Assembly: GCF_000022565.1 (NCBI RefSeq)
Contig: NC_012483.1
Span: 4,030,001 to 4,094,000, forward strand
Direction of reading: 5' to 3'
Origin: Acidobacterium capsulatum ATCC 51196
Lineage (GTDB): Bacteria > Acidobacteriota > Terriglobia > Terriglobales > Acidobacteriaceae
Length of the DNA: 64,000 bases
The number at the start of each line of letters is the position of its first letter. Within the stretch, counting starts at the first letter, position 1. This document shows positions 34,944 to 48,284 of the stretch, one piece after another. The notes below the pieces were generated by a model that saw only the letters and a program-made list of their open reading frames with translations, ran no database searches and was not told where the DNA came from. Made by a program: the position numbers and the translations under genes.

Positions 34944-36080
34944 TCAGATGCGGAGGAAGATACGCTTCCGGTACATAAGCGCGATCGGAATCAAGCAGAC
35001 AAAGACAAATGCAACGGAGTACAGGAGCGATGCCCACGCAGGCCAGGGAAGAACAACGAGAATGCGCAGATAGAGCCAGCGTTGCATCGTAAGATGATGA
35101 TTCAGATAAATTGCGCTCAAGGTAGACTGCAGAAGTTCCGCAAACATATATGCGGTAATGGGGTTCATTCCAAAAGCAAGCCAGAGATATAAGCCATTCC
35201 GATGCTTCCGGACCTCGGTCATCCAGAAGCAGAGCGCAAAGGCGAGAAGAGACCATCCGCCTGCATACAAGACATACGAACTGGTCCAGACCCTCTTGTT
35301 GATCGGGAACTCAAGCCCCCACAACGCGCCGGCCGTCAGAGCAATACCCGCTGCCGCCAGGAGCAGCATCAATTTCCTCCGTGGAGCTGCGGCGCTTCGC
35401 AACCATCCAGCCGTCATCATGCCGAGCAGCAGGGTGCCCATCGCCGGGATCGTACTCAACAACCCTTCAGGATCACGCGTGCCGGCATAGAGCCTACCCG
35501 GCAGCAGAAGACGATCCAGCCAGGCAACCAGATTGGCATTCGGGTCAAGAAAGGGTATATCTCTGCCGGGCAGGCCGTAGCCCGGTACGGGAACCCAGCG
35601 CATCAGCGCCCAATACCCAACCAGCGCCGTCGTAAAGAGCAAGGCCTGCAGCCAAACACGCCGCGAGAGCAGATACAAGAGGCTGCCGAAGAGATAGCAA
35701 ATCGCAATTCTTTGCAGCACGCCATAGATGCGCAAAGTGCCGAAGTGAAAATAAGGAAAACCGTTCACGACAAGCCCAAGTAGAAAAAGAATCACACTCC
35801 GCCGCAGGGCGTGAGCGGCGATCAAGAGTCGCGATTGCCCGCGGCGCAGCCGTGCTTCGGTGGAAAAGACCAATGAGATTCCAACCACAAAAATAAAGGT
35901 GGGGAAAACCAGATCGGTAGGCGTGAAGCCATTCCATTGTGCATGCTTGAGCGCCCAGAATGCGTGCGCCTCATCTCCATTGTTGTTCACGAGGATCATG
36001 AAAGCGATGGTGATCCCACGCAGCAAATCGATCGACACCATGCGTTTCGCATTCACTACCGTATCTTGATGCTGCTTCAT
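34944..36080 (-). CDS. HGSNAT-like membrane acetyltransferase (DUF5009 family)
   Basis: This 378-residue polytopic membrane protein has about ten predicted helices. The N-terminus SIDLLRGITIAFMILVNN, then GFTPTDLVFPTFIFVVGISL, is the conserved core of the heparan-alpha-glucosaminide N-acetyltransferase / DUF5009 family. In animals this protein moves an acetyl group from cytosolic acetyl-CoA across the membrane onto terminal non-reducing alpha-glucosamine. ATG 36080 was chosen because GAGAGG precedes it; a longer frame exists but overlaps the GH89 gene. It begins 12 bp after the GH89 stop on the same strand, so the two form an operon. Acetylation of a glycan amine in the periplasm is the likely role; the substrate is inferred. 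Confidence 0.85.
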   Translation of the reverse strand: MKQHQDTVVNAKRMVSIDLLRGITIAFMILVNNNGDEAHAFWALKHAQWNGFTPTDLVFPTFIFVVGISLVFSTEARLRRGQSRLLIAAHALRRSVILFLLGLVVNGFPYFHFGTLRIYGVLQRIAICYLFGSLLYLLSRRVWLQALLFTTALVGYWALMRWVPVPGYGLPGRDIPFLDPNANLVAWLDRLLLPGRLYAGTRDPEGLLSTIPAMGTLLLGMMTAGWLRSAAAPRRKLMLLLAAAGIALTAGALWGLEFPINKRVWTSSYVLYAGGWSLLAFALCFWMTEVRKHRNGLYLWLAFGMNPITAYMFAELLQSTLSAIYLNHHLTMQRWLYLRILVVLPWPAWASLLYSVAFVFVCLIPIALMYRKRIFLRI

Positions 36081-36091
36081 CGCTTCGCCTC

Positions 36092-38389
36092 TCAATGCTC
36101 CGTGTCGCCGGAGCGGCGATCTTCGCGCGCCATGGGACTGTCTTGATGCGTTCGCTGCCAGCTCTGTTTCCGCATTGCCGATGGAGCAATCCCCAGTGCC
36201 GTCGCTACCTGCATGGCGACGGACCATGAATCACCGCGCGCCTGGGTTGCGTAATGGGTCTGAGCACGGTTCCACTTCTCGCCGAATGCAAACCAGTCGA
36301 TGGGGTGAGGGGGCGTTCCGGTCTTCAAGGAGCGATCCAGATCATTGAAATAGATTTGCCAGCGCCGATAGTAATAGTCGCGGGTCAACCCAGCCCAGTC
36401 CTTGTTTCCATAATCCCGCAGTCCGGCCTCGCTGGCCGTGCGATTTCCCCAGGTGGTGAGAATCGATCGTGCATCGTAGTCAAGACGCCGCTGTTCCGTT
36501 GCAGTGGCGGCCCAGGGAGAGACAGCATTGAGCCACGGGCCAACCATAAAGGATGTGTTCGTAGCGAGCAGCTTGTCCTGAAGCATCATCATGCACAGCC
36601 ATTGCTTTTCAAGCGTTTCAAACCGGGCCTCATGACGGTGATCATAAGCGTCTTTGATTTCCGGCAGTGTCTTCCGGCTCCAGTTTGCGAGTGTTTGCCG
36701 TGCAACATCGACGAGATCATATTGATAGGTGGGCATTTCACGCATTCCAGGCGGCGCCTGCAGTAGTTCGGTGAGTGCGGCTTCAAACTTTTTCGGGTCA
36801 TAGCGGAGACGGTCAGGAGACCACGAAGATGCGGATACCGCATCGAGGCTTGGTTGCGCATCAAACAGGGACTCAGGGGGAGCATCGCGCTCGCCATGAT
36901 TTGAGACTCCATCGGCACGCGTTCCGTAGGCAGTTTCCATGAGGATTCTCCATGCGCGCCGGGTGTGAGGATCATCCATGCCATAGCGGCGGCGTGCATA
37001 TTCGCGGGACCAGGTGCGCAGATCTACAGGGGATGTTCGCCACGCCATTTCGGTGAAGAGGTCAAAAGCGGCAGGATTGTTGTCGAGCCCCTCGGAGAAC
37101 AGTGCTGTACCCTTCATGGTGCTGCCGGCGCGCAATCCCATGCGCGGCAGGCGCACGGCGTAGTCGTAAAGATTGGCTCCAAGGGTGGTGCGGCCGCCAA
37201 AGTCCCAGAGTCCGCCAAAGAGATATGCAGCTCCCATGAAATCCCGTTCGCGATTTTCGTGGGGAGTCCGTCCCTGATCGATATCGACGACAAGAAGATG
37301 AGAACGATCTACCGCTGATAGCAGAGCGCGTGACGGGTTGTTCTGCCACGCGAGCGTCATCCACATGGCTTGAGGGTGCGCGCGCAGAAGAGCTTTTTGA
37401 ATTGCTTTGGCTGCAGAGCTGACCGGCACATCTGCCGCCGAGCCTCCTTCCTGAAATAGCTCAATGTCATAGATCGAACTATCTCCAAATAGTTCTTGCT
37501 GGTGCTTGTAAAACGATGCGGCGACGGCGGCAAAGAGCGGGTCCCGAGGGTCCAGCCAAGCGGGCCGGCGGAAGCCATTCCAGTTGCCTTGCGGAATCAC
37601 ATGCGCGCCTGGGTGCCGCCGGGCAAAGTCCTCCGGCACCATTCCGAAGTATCCAGGAAAGACCGGCGTAATCCCGAGTTCGCGCAGCCGGCGAATTATT
37701 TGTTGGGCAGAGCGAATGCGCCGGTCAAGCAATGAGCGCGAGATGGGCTCATCAAAGCAACACAGATTGCCCATGAGTTGCCAGTTCTGGTGCGCGGGCT
37801 GTGTGATCCATGCTCGCATTTCCGCATCGGAATAGCCGAAGTCGCGAAAGGTTTCATAGAGTACGGCCTCCATCCCACGCTCCACCAGCATGGCGTTGAT
37901 GCCGCTGGCGGCAAATATGTCAATCTCGCGCTGCCACCGGGGCCAGCTCCAATAAGGCGTGGAGTAGCCATCGGTATTCTCATTCAGCGCGTAGCGATAA
38001 GGATACGGTGTCCTTCCTTCTATGACATGACGTGGTGCGGGCAGTGGTCCGCGCAAGGTGAGCTGATCGCCATTGGTCGATATCTGCAGGTGCGCCGTGT
38101 ACTTGAGATACCAGTTCACCGCAAACAAAGCCGCAACATTGCTGGTGGCTGCTACCACAATGTGTCCTCGCGTGCCGCAGATGCGAAATCGCTCACCGCC
38201 GCCTTTCCGCTGCAGCGGCAACAGGGTGATCTGCTGCTGCAGTGAGGGAATCAAACGGCGCAGCGCGGCCCGGGCTGGCTGGAGTGGAATCGCATCCTTA
38301 GCGGGCACGGCAATCGCAGGAGAAACGGCAAACGGAGAAAATGCAAGGGCAGCCAGCATGAACGCTGGCAGGAGCCGGAGAGGCGGCAT
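36092..38389 (-). CDS. Alpha-N-acetylglucosaminidase, GH89 (NAGLU-like)
   Basis: This 765-residue secreted enzyme has a signal peptide (MPPLRLLPAFMLAALAFSPF, ending around SPAIA), a short alpha/beta N-domain, and a TIM barrel with family motifs WSWPRWQREIDIFAASGIN and LVERGMEAVLYETF. The two catalytic Glu regions correspond to human NAGLU E316 (IYDIELFQEGG here) and E446 (LFSEGLDNNP here). A long helical C-terminal domain follows. It removes terminal alpha-linked GlcNAc. ATG 38389 was picked because it opens directly on the signal peptide. Operon with the acetyltransferase downstream; a TonB receptor gene lies 150 bp upstream. Confidence 0.93.
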   Translation of the reverse strand: MPPLRLLPAFMLAALAFSPFAVSPAIAVPAKDAIPLQPARAALRRLIPSLQQQITLLPLQRKGGGERFRICGTRGHIVVAATSNVAALFAVNWYLKYTAHLQISTNGDQLTLRGPLPAPRHVIEGRTPYPYRYALNENTDGYSTPYWSWPRWQREIDIFAASGINAMLVERGMEAVLYETFRDFGYSDAEMRAWITQPAHQNWQLMGNLCCFDEPISRSLLDRRIRSAQQIIRRLRELGITPVFPGYFGMVPEDFARRHPGAHVIPQGNWNGFRRPAWLDPRDPLFAAVAASFYKHQQELFGDSSIYDIELFQEGGSAADVPVSSAAKAIQKALLRAHPQAMWMTLAWQNNPSRALLSAVDRSHLLVVDIDQGRTPHENRERDFMGAAYLFGGLWDFGGRTTLGANLYDYAVRLPRMGLRAGSTMKGTALFSEGLDNNPAAFDLFTEMAWRTSPVDLRTWSREYARRRYGMDDPHTRRAWRILMETAYGTRADGVSNHGERDAPPESLFDAQPSLDAVSASSWSPDRLRYDPKKFEAALTELLQAPPGMREMPTYQYDLVDVARQTLANWSRKTLPEIKDAYDHRHEARFETLEKQWLCMMMLQDKLLATNTSFMVGPWLNAVSPWAATATEQRRLDYDARSILTTWGNRTASEAGLRDYGNKDWAGLTRDYYYRRWQIYFNDLDRSLKTGTPPHPIDWFAFGEKWNRAQTHYATQARGDSWSVAMQVATALGIAPSAMRKQSWQRTHQDSPMAREDRRSGDTEH

Positions 38390-38539
38390 CGTCAAAAATG
38401 TCCTGTGCTCGTGAGCAGGTTGGGCGGCAAAAGAAATGAGATTGCCGGGCGGAACGGAAATGTTCCCGGTTAAAGACAACTCTGCAGGTGTCATCCACTC
38501 TACTTTGTAGGTGGATGACACCCGCAGGTTGGGCATTCC

Positions 38540-41500
38540 TTAGAAGACGAAGCGGCCTGCAAGCTGCACAATTCGTCCGCCACGGTCTGCCGTCAGGTCG
38601 CCGAAGTTGGAGTCCCCAAGAGAGAATCCCGAAGGGGTTGTCGACTCGCTGGCCGCCATGAAGTTGGTTGTGTTCGTCATGTTGTAGGCTTCCAGCCGGA
38701 TATGAAAGGCTCTCTTTCCGCCGAGCGAAAATATCTTGGAAAGAGAAGCGTCATAGTTACGATATCCGGGTCCGAGCACAGTGTTGCGGCGAAGATTACC
38801 CACCGTGCCATTGGCTGCCTGCGTGAAGGCATTCACATTGAACCAATGGACAGCGCTGTTGTTCGGGTCCACCTTGCGCGGACCATTGTTGGCGTTCTGC
38901 CCGGCGACTGCGTCAGGGCGCTGACGGCAATTGCCACAGATGAAGCCGTTGTGGGCGCTATCGTAGTTCTGGTTCACGGTGTACCACGGCCCGCTTTCCA
39001 GAGTCAGAATGCCTCCGGTCTGCCATCCGCCCAGCAAGGCGTCAGCCACCCGGTTGAGGTGATTCCCAAATCGTTGACCGCGGCCGAATGGAAGTTGGTA
39101 AACAAACCCGGTCACCCAGCGATCCGCAATATCCCAGTCGGAGTTTCCGCGCTGCAAGGTGAGCTGCTGATAAGGATAGCTCGCCCGGCCATTGTTACCC
39201 ACGCTCAGTCCGGCGTTCGTGATGTCGTCGATGTCGTGGCTCCAGGTGAAGGCGCTGATCATCGTCAGTCCATTCCTGAAGTGGCTGCGAAACTTTACAC
39301 CCAGTGCATTGTAGGTGCCCATGCCCTGGTTCGATGGGCCTTGGATAGCGCTTCCGGCAATCAGATTTCCATTGCTGTCCACGCTCGGGAAGGGTTGCCG
39401 CTGCGCGTAGGGAACGGAGCCATCCACTGAGGGGGACGGGATGTTCCAGTCCTGATTCGTATACATGGAAGTGGTCTTCGATCCGATGTAAGAGATGTCC
39501 AGCGCGCTTTGGCCACCCAACTGCTGCTGAACGGTGACATTCCACTGCTGAAAGTAGGGTGTCTTGAGCGGTAGTTCCATCGCATAGAGCGTGGGGTCGC
39601 CCGGATTGGTGAGGGCATAGCTCGGAAAGCCGGTGGACATGGTCACCGTATTCACGGTTGCGGGATTGGAATTGGGAACCTGAAAACTGTCCTGCAAGAG
39701 GAACGGTGTGGAAAAGCCGGGGCTGGGCTCACCATAAAATCCCAGTTGCTCGGGACCATAGTAGAGACCGTAACCGGCACGAAAGACCGTGCTGGGAGTC
39801 ACGAGATAGCTGAATCCAAGGCGAGGGCCGAAGTCATGGTGGTCCGGCTGCACGCCAAAGTACCGGTTGGAGTGCGTGTCGAGCGTAATGATGCCCTTTG
39901 CAACTTGTGCCTGAGTGGCTGAGGGAAAAGACCCCGTATAGCCCGGAATGTGCAGCACATGAGTGATGGGGTCAAGCACAGAGCCGTGATTGTTTGCTTC
40001 CCACACCGGCGTCACATAATCCCAGCGCAGGCCCGCATCAATCGTCAGTTTGGTCGTCACCTGCCAGGAGTCTTCTGCAAACAGTGAATATGCGCGGCGC
40101 TGATAGTTGTTGGTATGAATGGCGGAGATGCGAGCCATCTCCGGCCGGTCAAGCAGGAAGTCGGCAAACGGGTTACCGGTTCCCGAGTCGGCGGTTCCGC
40201 TGGTGTAGTGAGCTGTGTAGTGACCATCAAAATCAAACTCGCCGTTGGGCGCAAACGAGCTGGCCGAGCTCTTGAAAAATACCCAGCGGTACATGCCGCC
40301 CAGCTTGATGGTGTGATGCCCCGTGGTCCAGGTGAAGGTGTCGGCGCCCTGATAGGTGCCGTTCAAATCCTGTTCGGAGTAGGCTCCGCCAAATCCGCTG
40401 AGATCGCTGTTCACAAAGCTGATCGTGGCCAGCCCCCCGGCCAGGCCGCCCTGCAGCGGAACGCCCGAGATGCCCACCTGCTGATTGACATTCTGGCTGC
40501 CGTTGGCCGGTGCGGTAATCCAGTTCAGACGCGTCCAGCCAAACCGCGCGTCGTTGATCATGCGCATGTTCAGCACGTGCGTCCAGCCCGCAACCACTCC
40601 CTGCGCATCCGCCATATTGCTGATATCACCGGTCAGCAGCGTGCCAGAGAAAAGTCCGACCTGCGGCAGACTCTGGTGCTGGTACTGATAGCGGCCAAAG
40701 ACCCTGTCATTAGCGCTGAACTGCTGATCGATGCGCACCGCAACGCGATTGTCGTCGTCATTGACGGGACTGTTGTGAAAGTAATTGGCCGAGCCGGATT
40801 GGGGAAGATTCGGAGCCGGGATAGCCGCGGCAATCTTCTGTGCAATGGGATTGATCAGATTTGCCGGAATGGTATTGTTCGCGAAGGGTTGATTTGTGGC
40901 CGGATTATAAATCGGGGCGTCGCCTTTGAAATCGCCCGAGGCTTCTGCCTGAGTCGGAATGAAACCACGTACCGGAGATCCCGGCGAGCGGTAGGGCTGC
41001 CGTTCAAAATCCACGAAAAAGAAGGTCCGGTCGTGTCCGTTATAAAGCTTCGGCAGCCATACCGGGCCCCCCAGTGAGGCGCCAAAGATGTTCTTCGTGT
41101 AGTCGGTTTTGCTGATGCCCTGTGCTTTGTTAAAAAAGTCGTTCGTATTGAAGTCGCTGGTCTGAAAGTACTCGTATCCTGAACCGTGAAAGTGATTGCT
41201 CCCTGATTTGGTGATGACGTTGATCACCGCGCCACCGTCCCGGCCAAACTCTGCAGAATAGGCATTCGTCTCGACCTTGAATTCCGCAATCGCATCCAGC
41301 GAGGGTTCAATGGCAAAGGTTCGTCCCTCGTTCACATTCTGGTCGTAGCTGTTGTTGTCGGTTCCGTCCAAGACATAATCGTTCTGATATTGAGAGATGC
41401 CGTTCGCCGAGAACCCACCGCTTGCCGTGTCGCGAGGGCCTGAAGGTGTCGTGTAATTCACACCGACCGTCAGCACCGCCAACCGGTTGAAGTCACGGTC

Positions 41501-41959
41501 GCTCACCGGCAAATCATTTTTGAGCACTCCGTGAATCGTTTGCCCGATCGACACATTTTCGGTATCGAGCAAAGGGGCATGAGCGGTGACAACCACATTT
41601 TGCTGCAGATTGCCGACCGAAAGCGTCACATCCACGCGGCTGTTCTGCTGAAGCTGAACCGTTACATGCTGAACGATCGTTGTCTGAAACCCCTTGCCGC
41701 TGACCGTCACCCGGTAATCGCCGGGCGCCAGAGGCGTCGCCAGCCACGTTCCAATGTTGTTGGTCCTGCCATGAAGTTGCGATTGTGTGCCGGTGTTGGT
41801 CACCACGACGGAGGCTGCCTTGAGGGCGGCTCCCGACGTATCCTTCGCGACCACGAGAATGCCGCCGGTGTCCTGTTGGGCAAATGCGCCGCAGACGGCC
41901 AATAAGAGGATGCACAGAAGAGAGCCATATCGCGTAAATCTTGTGCCTTGAGCTGACAA
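38540..41959 (-). CDS. Oar-like TonB-dependent receptor with carboxypeptidase-regulatory domain
   Basis: This 1139-residue outer-membrane protein has a signal peptide (about 1-28, ending AFAQ). A carboxypeptidase-regulatory-like Ig fold (about 32-115) contains TPLAPGDYRVTVSGKGFQ. A plug domain follows (about 120-290) with DNNSYDQNV and GRDGGAVINVITKSG, then a large beta-barrel ending in GRIVQLAGRFVF with a terminal Phe. It is expected to take up a large ligand, probably an oligosaccharide, using TonB. It is co-directional with the GH89 and acetyltransferase genes and divergent from the membrane regulator at 42365, which suggests a glycan-use locus. No SusD-like lipoprotein is present. Confidence 0.92.
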   Translation of the reverse strand: MSAQGTRFTRYGSLLCILLLAVCGAFAQQDTGGILVVAKDTSGAALKAASVVVTNTGTQSQLHGRTNNIGTWLATPLAPGDYRVTVSGKGFQTTIVQHVTVQLQQNSRVDVTLSVGNLQQNVVVTAHAPLLDTENVSIGQTIHGVLKNDLPVSDRDFNRLAVLTVGVNYTTPSGPRDTASGGFSANGISQYQNDYVLDGTDNNSYDQNVNEGRTFAIEPSLDAIAEFKVETNAYSAEFGRDGGAVINVITKSGSNHFHGSGYEYFQTSDFNTNDFFNKAQGISKTDYTKNIFGASLGGPVWLPKLYNGHDRTFFFVDFERQPYRSPGSPVRGFIPTQAEASGDFKGDAPIYNPATNQPFANNTIPANLINPIAQKIAAAIPAPNLPQSGSANYFHNSPVNDDDNRVAVRIDQQFSANDRVFGRYQYQHQSLPQVGLFSGTLLTGDISNMADAQGVVAGWTHVLNMRMINDARFGWTRLNWITAPANGSQNVNQQVGISGVPLQGGLAGGLATISFVNSDLSGFGGAYSEQDLNGTYQGADTFTWTTGHHTIKLGGMYRWVFFKSSASSFAPNGEFDFDGHYTAHYTSGTADSGTGNPFADFLLDRPEMARISAIHTNNYQRRAYSLFAEDSWQVTTKLTIDAGLRWDYVTPVWEANNHGSVLDPITHVLHIPGYTGSFPSATQAQVAKGIITLDTHSNRYFGVQPDHHDFGPRLGFSYLVTPSTVFRAGYGLYYGPEQLGFYGEPSPGFSTPFLLQDSFQVPNSNPATVNTVTMSTGFPSYALTNPGDPTLYAMELPLKTPYFQQWNVTVQQQLGGQSALDISYIGSKTTSMYTNQDWNIPSPSVDGSVPYAQRQPFPSVDSNGNLIAGSAIQGPSNQGMGTYNALGVKFRSHFRNGLTMISAFTWSHDIDDITNAGLSVGNNGRASYPYQQLTLQRGNSDWDIADRWVTGFVYQLPFGRGQRFGNHLNRVADALLGGWQTGGILTLESGPWYTVNQNYDSAHNGFICGNCRQRPDAVAGQNANNGPRKVDPNNSAVHWFNVNAFTQAANGTVGNLRRNTVLGPGYRNYDASLSKIFSLGGKRAFHIRLEAYNMTNTTNFMAASESTTPSGFSLGDSNFGDLTADRGGRIVQLAGRFVF

Positions 41960-42364
41960 GTCGTTCTCCTTGATGCGTACTGGTTCGGTGAGTCAGTTGG
42001 GGAAATTTGCGATCACTGGATGCCTGCGGAGAAAGCCGTTCCAATCCACTCCCTGGAGCGCGCGCTTCCACTGCGGTGCGGGCACTCAAGATGACGGCAA
42101 ATCTCTGCGGGACAGGCACATCATCAAACCACGCCCCGATAGCCGTAAGGTGTTTTCACCGTGGAGCCCTGCGGAGAGGAGTGTGAATAAAGAAGGGAAG
42201 TGCATCCAGAGGGTGCCAGTTGAGGATTGCCGGTAAGAATCAGGGGCTGCGAAACGGCAGTTTTAACGGTGTTTAAACCTGTACACCTGCATAATGAGAG
42301 TGTTCCTGCCGAGCAGGAACAGGAAACCACTGCGTGCCGTTGACCTGGCGGCCGCAGGCGATGG
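41960..42364. promoter_or_regulatory. Divergent promoter region of TonB receptor and membrane regulator
   Basis: This 405-bp region between divergent starts has no coding frame that I trust. It contains the 9-bp inverted repeat TGTTCCTGC-CGA-GCAGGAACA at 42301-42321. It also has an AT-rich block with GTTTAAAC (about 42269) and CATAAT (42292-42297), which could hold a promoter for the regulator gene. The inverted repeat lies 44 bp before that gene. Confidence 0.5.
42301..42321. promoter_or_regulatory. Candidate operator, TGTTCCTGC inverted repeat
   Basis: A perfect 9-bp inverted repeat with a 3-nt centre lies in the divergent region immediately upstream of the membrane-regulator gene. Its symmetry and position fit a dimeric regulator binding site; binding itself is not shown. 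Confidence 0.4.
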
Positions 42365-43705
42365 ATGAAAATGGCGTCAAATTCGCTGGAGATGCTGCCT
42401 TCGGCTGGCAACGGAAGCATCCTGCTTTCCGGCGATCCTCGCTGGCTGCTCGCGCAGCGCATTGCAGCGAGCGACATCTTCTCGAAGTCGGAATTCCTGC
42501 AGAAGTTTCTCCTTCACATCTGTGAGCTGCATCTGCAGGACAGGGACGAAGAAATCCGCGAGCAGAATATTGGTGTGCGCGTTTTCGGGCGAGCGCCCAG
42601 CTACAATCCCGGCGACGACAATATCGTCCGCAATTATGCTGTCCAGCTCCGCAAGCGCCTGAACCTCTATTTTGAGCGAGAGGGAAGCCAGGAGAGCTTC
42701 CGTCTTGAAATTCCCAGGGGAGCCTACATCCCCGTCTTCCATGCCCGGCCCTCGCTCGCCGGTCCCCAGCCCGCTCTGGCCGCGAGTGCCGAAGAAACTA
42801 CGCCGATTTCGCCAGCGCCCGGATCCCATCCACAAGTGCCCCCCGCCAGAAAAGACTGGCGGATGTTTTTAATCGGTCTCCTCTTTGCATCACTTCTCTG
42901 GGGCACATGCTGGCTCGCCTATACCTCTGCTTCTTCTCCGCCGGCTCCAAAAGTGGCCTCTCGCCCTTTGTGGGCAACCTTGTTTTCGAGAGGACACGAT
43001 ACGTTAATCGTCCCGGCCGACGCCGGTGTGGGCATTCTGCAAAATCTTTCCCAGCAGCCCGCTAGCCTCACCAGCTATTCCAACGGAGAATATCTCTCCA
43101 GTGTCAGGGTGAAGAATGCGGACCAGGGAAGCATCGACGACCTGCGCACTCAGCGATACACCAGCATGGTCGATCTGGACATAACAACCCGTCTCTCTCA
43201 TCTGCCCGAAGTTATTCCGGATCATCTGATCATCCGTTACGCCCGCGATCTTAGGATTGACGATCTGAGAGGCAACAATGTCATCCTTCTGGGAGCCATT
43301 CATACCGATCCGTGGATCAACCTTCTGCAGGCCAATCTTAATTTCAAATTTGTCTGCGACCGCCGCGTCAATGATTGCTATATCCTCAACACTCATCCGG
43401 CTCCCGGCGAACGGCCGCTCTATCGCAGCAATCTCAAGAGCCCCTATCGCGAAACCTATTCGGTTGTCGCATTGCTTCCCAACCTTGACCACACAGGCTG
43501 GATCCTTCTGATCGAAGGGCTCGACATGGCCGGAACCGAGGCCGCCGCCAATATCCTCATGAACGATTCAGCCATGCGACCCGTAATTCAGAAAGCCTTC
43601 ACCCGGAATGGAAAGCCCCGCGCCTTCGAGCTTCTGATCCAAACCGGCAGCCTCGAAGCCGAGGCTCTCCCCGCTGGGATCGTCGCCGAGCGATTCAGTC
43701 AATAG
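42365..43705 (+). CDS. Membrane-tethered winged-helix-like regulator (ToxR/CadC-like layout)
   Basis: This 446-residue protein has three parts. The cytoplasmic part (about 25-125) includes SEFLQKFLLHICELHL and EQNIGVRVFGR, then VRNYAVQLRKRLNLYF and LEIPRGAYIPVF. The last two resemble the recognition helix and wing of OmpR-type winged-helix domains. A Pro/Ala linker and one transmembrane helix follow (about 160-180, FLIGLLFASLLWGTCWLAY). A periplasmic domain of about 260 residues has C..(6)..C in VCDRRVNDC. I read it as a one-component signal transducer sensing a periplasmic ligand and acting on the divergent receptor-GH89-acetyltransferase genes. The DNA-binding call is structural inference from motif pattern, not a known-family match. 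Confidence 0.7.
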   Translation: MKMASNSLEMLPSAGNGSILLSGDPRWLLAQRIAASDIFSKSEFLQKFLLHICELHLQDRDEEIREQNIGVRVFGRAPSYNPGDDNIVRNYAVQLRKRLNLYFEREGSQESFRLEIPRGAYIPVFHARPSLAGPQPALAASAEETTPISPAPGSHPQVPPARKDWRMFLIGLLFASLLWGTCWLAYTSASSPPAPKVASRPLWATLFSRGHDTLIVPADAGVGILQNLSQQPASLTSYSNGEYLSSVRVKNADQGSIDDLRTQRYTSMVDLDITTRLSHLPEVIPDHLIIRYARDLRIDDLRGNNVILLGAIHTDPWINLLQANLNFKFVCDRRVNDCYILNTHPAPGERPLYRSNLKSPYRETYSVVALLPNLDHTGWILLIEGLDMAGTEAAANILMNDSAMRPVIQKAFTRNGKPRAFELLIQTGSLEAEALPAGIVAERFSQ

Positions 43706-44444: not shown

Positions 44445-44661
44445 TGCAGTCCTTCCTTCTTCAGAATCGGGCGGGCCCGGCGTGGCTACGTAAGCCTACG
44501 CTTCATGCGAGCCTCTTTGCAGTAAGGTGGCCCTACGGCGCAATCGGTTGCACGGCTCTCTGGCGGCGGCCATGCTGCGAGTCGTGATCAGCGTAGAGAT
44601 AAGGGCCGGGAAGCAACGTCTTATTTGTACATCGAATCTGACGCAGCAAGGATTGGTCATA

Positions 44662-45570
44662 ATGGCGCGCCCCTATTGGTCAGGTCAACTCAGAATTTCT
44701 CTGGTGTCGTTCGGCATCTCCCTGATTCCGGCGACGGAATCCAAGAGCGAGATTCACTTCCACGAGATTGATCGCGAAACCGGCCAGCGTGTGCGGCACC
44801 AGAAGGTGTTGCCAGAGAGCGGCGAAGCGGTTGAGAATCGCGAGATCGTCAAAGGCTATGAATACAGCAAGGGAAAATACATTCCGGTTGAGCCGGAAGA
44901 TATTCAGAACCTGCGCGTGGCCTCGAGCAAGACGATTGATCTGGAGCAATTTGTAACCGTTGATGAGATTGATCCTGCCTGTTATGAGAAGCCCTATTTT
45001 GTGCTGCCCGAGAACGCCTCGCAGGCCGAGGCATTTGCCGTGGTCAGAAAGGCGCTCGAAGAAACCGGCAAAGCCGGCATTGGCAAAATCGCGCTCGCAG
45101 GCCGGGAGCACCTCGTCGCTATTTGCGCGCCCGGCAACCCGAGGCTGCTGGGGCTGATGGCCTACACCTTGCGCTTTGCTGAAGAGATGCGGAGCGCGGA
45201 GCAGTACTTCGCCGGGATCGAAGCCGGCAAAGTGGACCCTGAGCAGTTGTCACTCGCCCGCGAGCTGATCCAGAGAAAATCGTCTTCCTTTGATCTGAAG
45301 AAGTTCAAGGACGAATACGAAACCGCTCTTAGAGAACTGGTCGATGCACGCCTCAAGCATGTCGCGTTGCCAAGGCAGGAGGTGGCGACGGCGCGCGGCA
45401 AAGTCATCGATCTCATGGATGCCTTGCGCCGCAGCGTCGGCGAGGAGAACGGGCGCAAAAAGTCTGTCTCCGGCGCGCAGCACCGCTCGCGCCGTAAGTC
45501 CAAGGGCGAACAGAAGCTCAAAGTCGTTCGTTCTGGCTCGTCGAGTGACAAGCGGCGCAAGTCTGCCTGA
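44662..45570 (+). CDS. ku: Non-homologous end-joining protein Ku
   Basis: This 302-residue bacterial Ku binds DNA double-strand ends as a homodimeric ring and recruits LigD. The N-terminus MARPYWSGQLRISLVSFGI, the ...IHFHEIDRETGQRVRHQKV segment and the YEKPYFVLPENAS stretch are typical of the Ku core (about 1-250). A Lys/Arg/Ser-rich C-terminal tail (about 265-302), as found in many bacterial Ku proteins, probably contacts DNA. ATG 44662 has AAGGA upstream; the frame extends further back without family sequence. The ligD start follows 8 bp after the stop. Confidence 0.96.
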   Translation: MARPYWSGQLRISLVSFGISLIPATESKSEIHFHEIDRETGQRVRHQKVLPESGEAVENREIVKGYEYSKGKYIPVEPEDIQNLRVASSKTIDLEQFVTVDEIDPACYEKPYFVLPENASQAEAFAVVRKALEETGKAGIGKIALAGREHLVAICAPGNPRLLGLMAYTLRFAEEMRSAEQYFAGIEAGKVDPEQLSLARELIQRKSSSFDLKKFKDEYETALRELVDARLKHVALPRQEVATARGKVIDLMDALRRSVGEENGRKKSVSGAQHRSRRKSKGEQKLKVVRSGSSSDKRRKSA

Positions 45571-45578
45571 GAACCCGC

Positions 45579-48284
45579 ATGAAAAAGCAAAGCCGCAGGC
45601 CGCCGAAGCGCAAATCTATAAATCACGCGGTTCACACTGCGGCTCGAGCCGCAACTCGTTCCAAGAACAAGCCTCTCGCGCAATACCAGTCAATGAGAGA
45701 TTTTGGCGTGACGCCCGAGCCAAAGGGCGCGGCGGGGAAGCGTTTGAACGCGGGCGCGTTGAGCTTTGTGGTGCAAAAGCATGCGGCCAGTCATCTGCAT
45801 TACGACTTCCGCCTGGAGTGGCAGGGAGTGCTCAAGAGCTGGGCGGTTGCGAAGGGGCCAAGTTATTATCCCGGCGACAAGCGGCTCGCCGTCGAGGTCG
45901 AAGACCATCCGTTAGCCTATGGTGGATTCGAGGGCATCATTCCTCAGGGCCAGTACGGCGGCGGCACCGTGATGCTGTGGGATCGCGGCACCTGGGAGCC
46001 ACTGGGTGATGCGGCCCGCCAGTTGCGCGATGGCAATCTGAAGTTTCGATTGCATGGCGAGAAGCTGAAAGGCTGCTGGGCGCTGGTGCGCATGAAAGGG
46101 AAGTTTGCGGGGCGATCGAAGCCGTCATGGTTGCTGATCAAGGAGCACGACGAATCCGAACGCGGCGACGATGCGCCGGCCATTGTGGACGAAGCTCCGC
46201 TCAGCGTAGTGAGTGGCCGGGACATGCAGCAGATCGCCGAGGCTCAGGATGCCGTGTGGAATGCGAAGGGCGCGCAGGCGCAAAGCTCCGCCGCTGCGCA
46301 TCGTGCCAATGCCCCGAAGCAATCCATGCCCGCCGCACTCCTTCCGCGCGAAATAGCGGCTACTCTCAAGCGCTTGCCCAGCGAGGCGTTGCCGCGGTTT
46401 GTGCCTCCACAACTTGCGACGCTCGTGAGCGAGCCGGGGGCTGGTGAGAATCGCGTCTACGAAATCAAGCTCGATGGCTATCGCATCGAGGCGCGCGTGG
46501 ACAAGAAGGCCGATCCGCCGGTGCAGCTTCTCACGCGCACGGGCCTTGACTGGACGAGCCGGATGCGGCCGTTGGCCGATGCTCTGCTGCGGCTGCCGGT
46601 GCAGACCGCCTTGCTCGACGGCGAACTGGTGGTGCTCGAAGAGAAGGGAACGACCAGCTTCGCCAAATTACAGGCAGTACTGAAGGATGACTCCCGGCAT
46701 TCACTCACATACTTTGCCTTTGACCTGCTGCATCTGGATGGGCATAATCTGCGCGGCGAACCATTGCTCATTCGTAAGAAGATACTCAGCGCACTGTTGA
46801 CTGATTTGCCCGCAAGCAGCGCGGTGCGCTTCAGCGAGCACGTGAAAGGCAATGGCGAGGAGATATTTCAAAAGGCCTGCAAACTCGGCGCGGAAGGGGT
46901 CATTTCAAAGCTCGCGCAGGGCTTTTACCACTCCGGCCGGAGCCGCGACTGGTGGAAGCTCAAGTGCTATCTCGAACAGGAACTGGTCATCGGCGGATAC
47001 ACGCTCCCTTCCAACGGCACCTATGGGGTGGGCGCATTGCTGCTGGGCTATTACGACGCCGGCAAGCTGATCTACGCGGGCCGCACGGGAACAGGTTTCA
47101 CGCGCGCCACGCATCGCCGCATGCGAGAGCAGTTGGAGGCCATTCGCCGGGGAACTGCGCCATTTGCAAAGGTGGAGCAGGATGCGCGGCGCGGGGCCAT
47201 CTGGGTGCAGCCGCAGCTCGTGGCCCAGGTTTCATTCGCAAGCTGGACGACCGATGGTCTCGTCCGGCAGGCTGCCTTCAAGGGGTTGCGTGAAGACAAG
47301 CCGGCAAAGACTGTGCGGCGCGAAGGGGGACAGATGCCAGAATCGGAAGGAAAGGCGGCGAAGAAACCTCGCGCGAACAGCACCACGGTGCGGTCAGAGC
47401 TTCGGCTCACCCATCGCGACAAAGTGCTCGACAAGGATTCGGGCCTGACCAAAGAGGCGCTCGCGGACTATTACGCCAGGATCGCGCCCTTCATGCTGCC
47501 GCACATTCAAGGGCGTGCGGTGTCGATTGTGCGCTGTCCTGCGGGCAGTGACCTGAGTTGCTTCTTTCAGAAGCACAACAACCACACGCTGCCCGGCGAG
47601 ATCGAAAGCATTGAGATTGCGAGCCGCAAAACCGGCAAGGTTGAGCCCTTCCTCACCATCTCAAGCGCAAACGATTTGCTGGTACTCGCGCAAGCCAGCG
47701 TGCTTGAGATTCATGCCTGGGGTTCGACGCGCGACTCTCTGGAAAAGCCGGACCGTCTGACGATCGACCTTGACCCTGACGATGCCATCGACTGGAAGAC
47801 GCTGGCCGGCGCGGCTGTGGAGGTGCGCAAGCGGCTCGCACGCGCGGGGGTGAAATCATTCCTCAAGAGCACCGGCGGCAAGGGCCTTCATGTCGTGGCC
47901 CCCATCGAGCCCGAACATGAGTGGCCCGAGGTCAAAGAGTTTGCCCATCGCATGGTGCTGGAGATGGAGAAGGAAAATCCTGACCTCTATCTCACGCGAA
48001 TGACCAAGGCCGCCCGCAAAGGCAAAATCTACCTGGATTATCTCCGCAACGAACGGGGCGCGACGGCCATCGCGCCGTTCTCTCCGCGAGCGCGCCCGGG
48101 AGCGCCCGTAGCGCTGCCGCTGCGCTGGTCTGAGCTCAAGTCGGCGGAGCGGCCCATCTTTCGCGTGACGGAATTTGACGGCTGGCGTAAGAGGCTCAAG
48201 GCTGATCCATGGCGCGGCTTTCTGCAGCTGCATCAGAGTTTGCGTCTGCCTGAGGCCGCCCGGGTGAGTCCAGGAGGAAGATAG
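45579..48284 (+). CDS. ligD: Multifunctional DNA ligase LigD
   Basis: This 901-residue NHEJ enzyme has its domains in the order phosphoesterase-ligase-polymerase. The 3'-phosphoesterase domain (about 35-185) has HLHYDFRLEW and PQGQYGGGTV. The ATP-dependent ligase (about 265-565) has the KxDG active site in YEIKLDGYR (about K297) and ALLDGELVVL. The primase-polymerase domain (about 615-885) has LTIDLDPDD for the metal-binding Asp pair and FLKSTGGKGLHVV. It processes and seals breaks held by Ku. This order matches the PE-LIG-POL arrangement of Pseudomonas LigD. An operon with ku is indicated by the 8-bp gap. Confidence 0.96.
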   Translation: MKKQSRRPPKRKSINHAVHTAARAATRSKNKPLAQYQSMRDFGVTPEPKGAAGKRLNAGALSFVVQKHAASHLHYDFRLEWQGVLKSWAVAKGPSYYPGDKRLAVEVEDHPLAYGGFEGIIPQGQYGGGTVMLWDRGTWEPLGDAARQLRDGNLKFRLHGEKLKGCWALVRMKGKFAGRSKPSWLLIKEHDESERGDDAPAIVDEAPLSVVSGRDMQQIAEAQDAVWNAKGAQAQSSAAAHRANAPKQSMPAALLPREIAATLKRLPSEALPRFVPPQLATLVSEPGAGENRVYEIKLDGYRIEARVDKKADPPVQLLTRTGLDWTSRMRPLADALLRLPVQTALLDGELVVLEEKGTTSFAKLQAVLKDDSRHSLTYFAFDLLHLDGHNLRGEPLLIRKKILSALLTDLPASSAVRFSEHVKGNGEEIFQKACKLGAEGVISKLAQGFYHSGRSRDWWKLKCYLEQELVIGGYTLPSNGTYGVGALLLGYYDAGKLIYAGRTGTGFTRATHRRMREQLEAIRRGTAPFAKVEQDARRGAIWVQPQLVAQVSFASWTTDGLVRQAAFKGLREDKPAKTVRREGGQMPESEGKAAKKPRANSTTVRSELRLTHRDKVLDKDSGLTKEALADYYARIAPFMLPHIQGRAVSIVRCPAGSDLSCFFQKHNNHTLPGEIESIEIASRKTGKVEPFLTISSANDLLVLAQASVLEIHAWGSTRDSLEKPDRLTIDLDPDDAIDWKTLAGAAVEVRKRLARAGVKSFLKSTGGKGLHVVAPIEPEHEWPEVKEFAHRMVLEMEKENPDLYLTRMTKAARKGKIYLDYLRNERGATAIAPFSPRARPGAPVALPLRWSELKSAERPIFRVTEFDGWRKRLKADPWRGFLQLHQSLRLPEAARVSPGGR

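Follow-up and report, generated by a model that had tools for sequence, protein, structure and literature searches.

The genes for a GH89 α-N-acetylglucosaminidase and an HGSNAT-like transmembrane acetyltransferase are adjacent in Acidobacterium capsulatum ATCC 51196, in a 64,000-nucleotide stretch of DNA that we refer to as the window, and the same pairing is conserved in relatives of this bacterium. In our estimate, there is about an even chance that the pair operates as a periplasmic acetylate-then-hydrolyse system for α-linked glucosamine that is used on inositol-linked glycans. That acetylation is functionally coupled to GH89 cleavage appears quite likely, and, granted such coupling, an inositol-linked substrate is reasonably likely as well; judging from gene neighbourhoods, what the pair probably salvages are α-GlcN-inositol glycans, be they GPI anchors or fungal or plant GIPCs. 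To our knowledge, none of these proteins has been the subject of an enzyme assay.

In the human lysosome, HGSNAT and then NAGLU degrade heparan sulfate, the two enzymes corresponding to Sanfilippo types C and B, respectively. The bacterial pair shares with the human one both enzyme families and their catalytic residues, with acetyl-CoA on the cytosolic side of the membrane and the glycan on the far side. It differs in that the bacterial genes are adjacent and accompanied by a TonB receptor, and in that relatives show linkage to inositol genes, not to sulfatases.

The four genes and their products

All four open reading frames have the placement and order first proposed for them, and profile searches confirm the families of three, which lie on the minus strand: the HGSNAT/NagX-type transmembrane N-acetyltransferase (378 aa; positions 34944..36080), the GH89 enzyme (765 aa; 36092..38389) and an Oar-type TonB-dependent outer-membrane receptor (1139 aa; 38540..41959). 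A divergent intergenic region of 405 bp (41960..42364) separates the receptor from the gene for a putative one-TM regulator of 446 aa on the plus strand (42365..43705). The first-pass annotation was right that the GH89 and HGSNAT genes adjoin, the gap being 11 bp and not the 12 bp that it gave; each gene is present in single copy in the A. capsulatum genome.

The assignment of the first of these products as an HGSNAT-like acetyltransferase, also made at first pass, is borne out both by the fold of a predicted model and by the catalytic His/Asn residues. The product scores 45.8 bits against HGSNAT_cat (PF07786; gathering cut-off 22), and phmmer alignment places His46 (codon 35943..35945, minus strand) and Asn32 (codon 35985..35987, minus strand) opposite H297 and N286 of human HGSNAT (H269 and N258 in the 635-aa numbering). 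In the human enzyme this histidine is catalytic and the asparagine hydrogen-bonds acetyl-CoA; both residues are invariant across 17 aligned HGSNAT homologues. The predicted model superposes on human HGSNAT (8vkj) with Z 33.4 and 2.7 Å over 319 residues, Foldseek matches it to the HGSNAT fold with E 6e-12, and GWT1 is its second-best structural match. The fold is thus that of the TmAT superfamily (AT3/OafB, HGSNAT, DUF5009, GWT1; PMC12423673), whose members differ from the window's protein in acceptor and pathway. Unlike human HGSNAT, the bacterial protein has no luminal N-terminal domain, its alignment beginning at human residue ~265.

The GH89 product carries all three NAGLU domains above cut-off (NAGLU_N, NAGLU and NAGLU_C at 67, 353 and 258 bits), behind a hydrophobic, signal-like stretch at its N-terminus, and matches CpGH89 (2vc9) at 378 bits and human NAGLU (4xwh) at 283. 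Its Glu314 (codon 37448..37450) and Glu433 (codon 37091..37093, both on the minus strand) align to E483 and E601, the catalytic glutamates of CpGH89 (PMC8225759). The fold and the glutamate pair are common to CpGH89, BfAgnB and Bt3590 as well, although those enzymes cleave GlcNAc-α1,4-Gal mucin caps or heparosan, and in the literature searched no acetyltransferase partner is described for any of them.

Conservation of the GH89–HGSNAT pairing

Of the 65 GH89 loci in the order that could be tested, 42, spread over 8 of 16 genera, directly adjoin a co-directional HGSNAT gene, as compared with ~0.03 adjacencies expected by chance, a figure of our own that assumes a few HGSNAT copies placed randomly among ~4500 genes. 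The pairs fall in two deep GH89 clades, and the linked HGSNATs do not make one clade with that of the window (p-AU 5e-57). Because the pairing is conserved in relatives, the objection that the two genes co-occur in this genome alone fails, and the joint logic put forward in the first-pass annotation, that of acetylating and then hydrolysing, is well supported.

Every linked case found belongs to one bacterial family and many are close relatives; a single scan of genome contigs returned close GH89s only. At ~30 gammaproteobacterial GH89 loci, no HGSNAT lies within 8 kb. In favour of a functional link, a close HGSNAT occurs in 45 of 46 genomes with GH89 versus 43 of 60 without it (p 0.0004). HGSNAT is nevertheless widespread in genomes devoid of GH89 and so has other partners. 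Among the neighbours of unlinked HGSNATs there is no common glycosidase partner; one sees instead a recurring receptor and two recurring proteins, for which a sequence search of the PDB gave no match.

The abundance of HGSNAT without GH89, together with its being the sole HGSNAT in A. capsulatum, would suit an enzyme of the NagX kind. NagX (Shewanella, Caulobacter and others) is a relative of HGSNAT required for glucosamine use in five bacteria; it resembles the window's protein in PF07786 family, size, catalytic histidine and proposed periplasmic amino-sugar acetylation, but acts on free glucosamine and is often encoded in chitin-utilisation operons (PMC9007349). By analogy, the window's HGSNAT would acetylate free periplasmic glucosamine while GH89 cuts glycans that are already acetylated, the two being neighbours only through shared GlcNAc catabolism. 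We regard this as unlikely, if by no means far-fetched. The window's protein does score 158 bits to the NagX model, yet this falls well below the equivalog cut-off (NF046061, 480 bits), as do the 178–186 bits of its relatives, and its partner is a GH89. Moreover, GH20 genes, taken as a chitin-type control, are unlinked (0 of 110 near GH89; 2 of 110 near HGSNAT, with 1.9 expected), which argues against a chitin/NagX context, whereas linkage to GH89 and to inositol genes is specific.

Inositol genes and the candidate substrate

The recurrent neighbours of the pair, or of one of its members, in relatives are myo-inositol genes, phosphoinositide phospholipase C (PI-PLC), a phosphoesterase and α-mannosidase. 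A distance of no more than 20 kb separates a RhaT-like transporter from myo-inositol oxygenase (MIOX) in 26 of 34 cases, from HGSNAT in 16 of 41, and from GH89 in 12 of 38 (0.34 expected), many of the last coming from one genus (g4) and hence not being independent. MIOX itself is found near GH89 in 6 of 34 cases (0.31 expected; p 1e-6 in a Poisson test that presumes random placement and a 5-Mb genome). Gene strings make the association concrete: GH89-HGSNAT-RhaT-LacI-MIOX, all co-directional, at locus L135; MIOX-LacI-RhaT divergent from GH89-HGSNAT-PfkB at L124; receptor-phosphoesterase-PI-PLC-HGSNAT at L245; and GH89-receptor-phosphoesterase-PI-PLC at L119, whose GH89 is the closest relative of the window's (67%). 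Direct linkage to PI-PLC, with one case for GH89 alone and three for HGSNAT, is not significant by itself. The A. capsulatum genome gave no match to MIOX or to the RhaT-like transporter.

The myo-inositol linkage in relatives suggests glucosamine-inositol glycans over heparan sulfate. GPI anchors and GIPCs occur throughout eukaryotic membranes and walls, and their glucosamine is largely unacetylated. Natural unacetylated examples on inositol include barley HexN-HexA-IPC and fungal GlcN-α1,2-IPC, and in plant membranes GIPCs predominate among the glycosphingolipids (PMC12201980). Candidate substrates with α-GlcN on inositol would then be GPI-anchor remnants (GlcN-α1,6-Ins), fungal GIPCs (GlcN-α1,2-Ins) and plant GIPCs (GlcN-GlcA-Ins). 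In the mechanism that we propose, phospholipase C would free the glycan from its lipid and the Oar receptor would import it, the receptor itself being under the putative control of the one-TM protein. HGSNAT would pass an acetyl group from cytosolic acetyl-CoA across the membrane onto the exposed terminal GlcN, whereupon GH89, predicted to require GlcNAc, would release GlcNAc and an inositol-bearing remainder. In relatives, the RhaT-like transporter would import the inositol, which MIOX would oxidise to glucuronate.

Taken further, such steps would amount to a bacterial pathway for dismantling fungal or plant GPI anchors, GIPCs or both, by way of phospholipase C, phosphatase, α-mannosidase, a capping acetyltransferase, GH89 and inositol oxidation, with a second role for the HGSNAT–NAGLU duo; this we advance tentatively, at somewhat less than an even chance. 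The literature searched describes no bacterial route for cleaving the unacetylated glucosamine-inositol link of GPI or GIPC. If the proposal is true, soil Acidobacteriota salvage this link by the very two-step chemistry that is defective in Sanfilippo disease. HGSNAT and NAGLU could then be modelled by small bacterial counterparts present in single copy, and the two enzymes would be likely tools for trimming the glycans of GPI anchors and GIPCs. What the widespread bacterial HGSNAT/DUF5009 proteins do would also become testable.

Substrates may, on the other hand, differ by locus. Loci of the second clade combine GH89-HGSNAT with their own receptor and a GH2 that is closest to a β-galactosidase (512 bits to 5euv), and known bacterial GH89s cleave GlcNAc-α1,4-Gal (PMC8225759); these loci could degrade galactose-containing glycans (GlcN/GlcNAc-α-Gal or Gal-GlcN-GlcA-inositol), leaving the inositol link to the first clade only. 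We judge this rather improbable, in that two second-clade loci still have MIOX and the transporter at a distance of ~16 kb, and plant GIPC head groups of the type Hex-HexN-HexA-inositol would likewise need a hexosidase first.

The leading example at first pass, breakdown of heparan sulfate or heparosan along the lines of the human lysosome, has both human enzymes of that step in its favour, as well as the cleavage of heparosan oligosaccharides by the GH89 Bt3590 of B. thetaiotaomicron. It is not upheld by the recurrent neighbours, which are the inositol genes, PI-PLC, phosphoesterase and α-mannosidase listed above, with no uronate lyase, sulfatase or glucuronidase among those annotated, and we now consider it quite improbable. 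Inherited hitch-hiking within one bacterial family, with no functional coupling, would account for the restriction of linked cases to that family and for their close relatedness, but is very improbable given that linked HGSNATs and GH89s fall in more than one clade and that pair order and other neighbours differ.

The receptor and the putative regulator

The four genes had been presented as one system, and this does not hold for the receptor and regulator as fixed members. The window's regulator-receptor-GH89 block is most closely related to that of locus L040, where the neighbour of GH89 is a phosphoesterase and not an HGSNAT; the regulator and receptor families also accompany PI-PLC and other enzymes. 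The receptor (OMP_b-brl_4, PF25183, 752 bits, with a CarboxypepD_reg domain) is 66% identical to that of L040, the next best BLAST match being 31%. The putative regulator is 52% identical to its L040 counterpart and 42–43% to regulators beside PI-PLC. An orthologous module with the larger loci L081–L096 of relatives (REG-GH89-HGSNAT-GH2-receptor) was considered and rejected: in direct BLAST, both the receptor and the regulator of the window find their best counterparts at L040 and show only distant similarity to those of L081–L096.

The winged-helix-like character given to the putative regulator at first pass was not confirmed: Pfam and NCBIfam searches gave no family for the protein, hhalign against one Trans_reg_C protein gave 11% and no match, and single-sequence fold prediction reached a pLDDT of 36. 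Hydropathy places one TM-like segment at residues 167–185 (42863..42919, plus strand), behind a presumably cytosolic N-terminal portion, a layout shared with transmembrane regulators of the ToxR/CadC type. The A. capsulatum genome holds about ten relatives of this protein, several of them adjoining Oar receptors, and its PI-PLC adjoins a paralogous regulator-receptor pair.

The GH89–HGSNAT pair

The four genes that a first-pass annotation had read as an acetylate-then-hydrolyse glycan system, with the human heparan sulfate pathway as its model, are all found in place by open reading frames and domain matches: the HGSNAT-like transmembrane acetyltransferase (34944–36080, minus strand; HGSNAT_cat match, 45.8 bits), the NAGLU-like glycosidase GH89 (36092–38389, minus strand; three of three NAGLU domains matched), an Oar-type TonB receptor (38540–41959, minus strand; OMP_b-brl_4 at 752 bits), and a divergent putative regulator (42365–43705, plus strand), which has one transmembrane-like segment and no family match in domain searches. 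In genome-wide searches of the single contig (4,127,356 bases, the window being 4,030,001–4,094,000), GH89 and HGSNAT each occur once, with a gap of 11 bp between them. In the alignments, GH89 retains both catalytic glutamates, and His46 and Asn32 of HGSNAT, invariant across 17 homologues, align with the catalytic His and acetyl-CoA-binding Asn described for the human enzyme (PMC11357348). An AlphaFold2 model of the window's HGSNAT (mean pLDDT 79) predicts a fold whose best structural match is human HGSNAT (Z 33.4, 319 residues), followed by GWT1 (Z 19.7), while unrelated folds score Z ≤5.8.

The families of the parts (PF07786, GH89, Oar receptor) are ordinary. The acetyltransferase falls under the NagX equivalog cut-off (158 vs. 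480 bits) and, unlike human HGSNAT, has no luminal domain, and so cut-off and domain tests place it outside both the NagX equivalogs and the human-type HGSNATs. It very probably works like both the human enzyme and NagX, for which acetylation of free periplasmic glucosamine has been proposed (PMC9007349). A bacterial HGSNAT–GH89 operon, or its inositol link, is undescribed in the literature searched, most subscription journals lying outside it.

Conservation and history of the pair

Among 397 genomes of the window's order, 62 have GH89 and 338 have HGSNAT_cat. When open reading frames of GH89 neighborhoods were searched with profiles seeded from the window proteins, the adjacency expected from the first-pass annotation was borne out: at 42 of the 65 GH89 loci whose downstream sequence was long enough, HGSNAT follows directly in the same orientation, often only a few bases away, and these loci span 8 of 16 genera. 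The gene pair is real and conserved, as is its logic. A close HGSNAT is carried by 45 of 46 genomes with GH89 vs. 43 of 60 without (p 0.0004), a difference that is small within the best-sampled genus; HGSNAT is therefore close to obligatory where GH89 occurs, yet clearly has further roles. The neighbors of unlinked HGSNATs are mixed. At about 30 gammaproteobacterial loci (Dyella, Rhodanobacter, Rudaea) bearing the nearest GH89s outside the family (57–61% identity), no HGSNAT lies within 8 kb. One contig labelled Candidatus Eremiobacteraeota (L127) has a GH89 neighborhood resembling that of Dyella, and its GH89 groups among Dyella sequences, a probable case of mis-binning or transfer.

Most of the linked HGSNATs belong to one of two clades (A and B), and that of the window lies outside both. 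Placing the window's HGSNAT with both clades as one group is rejected (p-AU 5e-57); placing it with clade B is not (p 0.09). The GH89 tree has the same two deep clades and groups the window's enzyme with that of locus L104, whose genome has HGSNAT at another locus. These topologies therefore leave two histories for the pair: assembly on more than one occasion, or an ancestral pairing that was repeatedly broken up.

A proposed glucosaminyl-inositol substrate

NAGLU-type enzymes release GlcNAc and not GlcN, as is established for heparan sulfate, and it is because GlcN is not removed that human cells need HGSNAT first. HGSNAT adjoining a secreted GH89 implies a substrate carrying bare α-GlcN. The heparan reading has given way to a glucosaminyl-inositol one, which is drawn from gene neighborhoods. 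In soil, residues of this bare kind are carried by inositol. GPI anchors contain GlcN-α1,6-Ins. GIPCs glycosylated at inositol O2 should resist a PI-PLC whose mechanism passes through a cyclic phosphate at that position, and GPI therefore suits an enzyme of that chemistry better. Fungal GIPCs feature GlcN-α1,2-Ins, including Aspergillus Man-Man-GlcN-IPC (PMC5954224), and barley has HexN-HexA-IPC and Hex-HexN-HexA-IPC (PMC12201980); in a fungus, phospholipase C is reported to free inositol phosphate glycans from GIPCs (PMC11496612). The bacterial route would then run from uptake through inositol oxidation.

It was the PI-PLC cassette of locus L217/L245 (receptor, phosphoesterase, PI-PLC, HGSNAT; PI-PLC matching PF16670 at 463 bits) that pointed to inositol. 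L119/L104 reads GH89, receptor, phosphoesterase, PI-PLC, its GH89 being the closest relative of the window's (67%). PI-PLC cassettes include myo-inositol oxygenase (MIOX; PF05153, 356 bits) adjoining a LacI regulator, and the RhaT-like transporter next to that MIOX is 79–80% identical to the one beside GH89–HGSNAT at many type A loci.

Positions of GH89, HGSNAT, transporter, MIOX, PI-PLC and GH20 were compared within the same genomes, proximity meaning within 20 kb. The transporter lies near MIOX in 26 of 34 cases, near GH89 in 12 of 38 (expected 0.34) and near HGSNAT in 16 of 41 (expected 0.63); MIOX lies near GH89 in 6 of 34 (expected 0.31, p 1e-6; three genera), linkage p-values here overstating independence, as many transporter cases come from close relatives. 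Of 110 cases of the chitin-type hexosaminidase GH20, none lies near GH89 and 2 lie near HGSNAT (expected 1.9), and the proximity of PI-PLC alone to GH89 or HGSNAT is not significant. By genome, MIOX occurs in 36 of 62 with GH89 vs. 100 of 335 others (p 3e-5). Despite the close relatedness of many cases, gene layouts vary: in Granulicella sp. S190 (L124), GH89-HGSNAT-PfkB diverges from MIOX-LacI-transporter, and at L135 GH89-HGSNAT-transporter-LacI-MIOX all run in one direction. The transporter is broken, or its match crosses in-frame stops, in several genomes (G155, G030, G076, G018, G054); G155 has only fragments beside GH89 (C4:249250–249764) and another copy elsewhere. Upstream of the GH89 in a gammaproteobacterial MAG lies a transporter that shares 74% identity with its acidobacterial counterpart (L133:4055–5386), by either transfer or mis-binning.

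Receptor, regulator and other neighbors

For both the receptor and the regulator of the window, the closest relatives are at L040 (66% and 52%, respectively), a locus that reads regulator, receptor, phosphoesterase, GH89. The next-closest regulators adjoin PI-PLC, one of them in the window's own genome, where a paralogous regulator, Oar receptor and PI-PLC are consecutive (L242; C1:1523890–1530173), an arrangement sister to the window's. Genome-wide searches find neither MIOX nor the RhaT-like transporter in this genome, so that, if the substrate is inositol-linked, it would use inositol otherwise or not at all.

GH92 α-mannosidases lie close to HGSNAT in some relatives. At L246:7957–19361 a GH18 EndoS-like enzyme, an HGSNAT relative, a regulator, a PI-PLC, a receptor and a GH92 follow one another, apparently a locus that acts on GPI-anchored glycoproteins. 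A protein of ~820 aa recurs beside HGSNAT, Oar receptor and regulator (L189:2207–4687, L192:7364–9811, L195:3772–6213, L208:3448–6063); with no Pfam or PDB match and a weak DUF608/GH116 hint (E 0.02), it is possibly a new glycosidase family. Another, of ~520 aa, recurs beside HGSNAT and Oar receptor (L194:4666–6231, L196:7300–8970, L199:4557–6116, L226:12181–13785, L227:12667–14001), and Pfam and PDB searches gave no match to it. Elsewhere in the window (44527–48284), Ku adjoins LigD, with phosphoesterase, ligase and primase domains, the standard bacterial end-joining pair.
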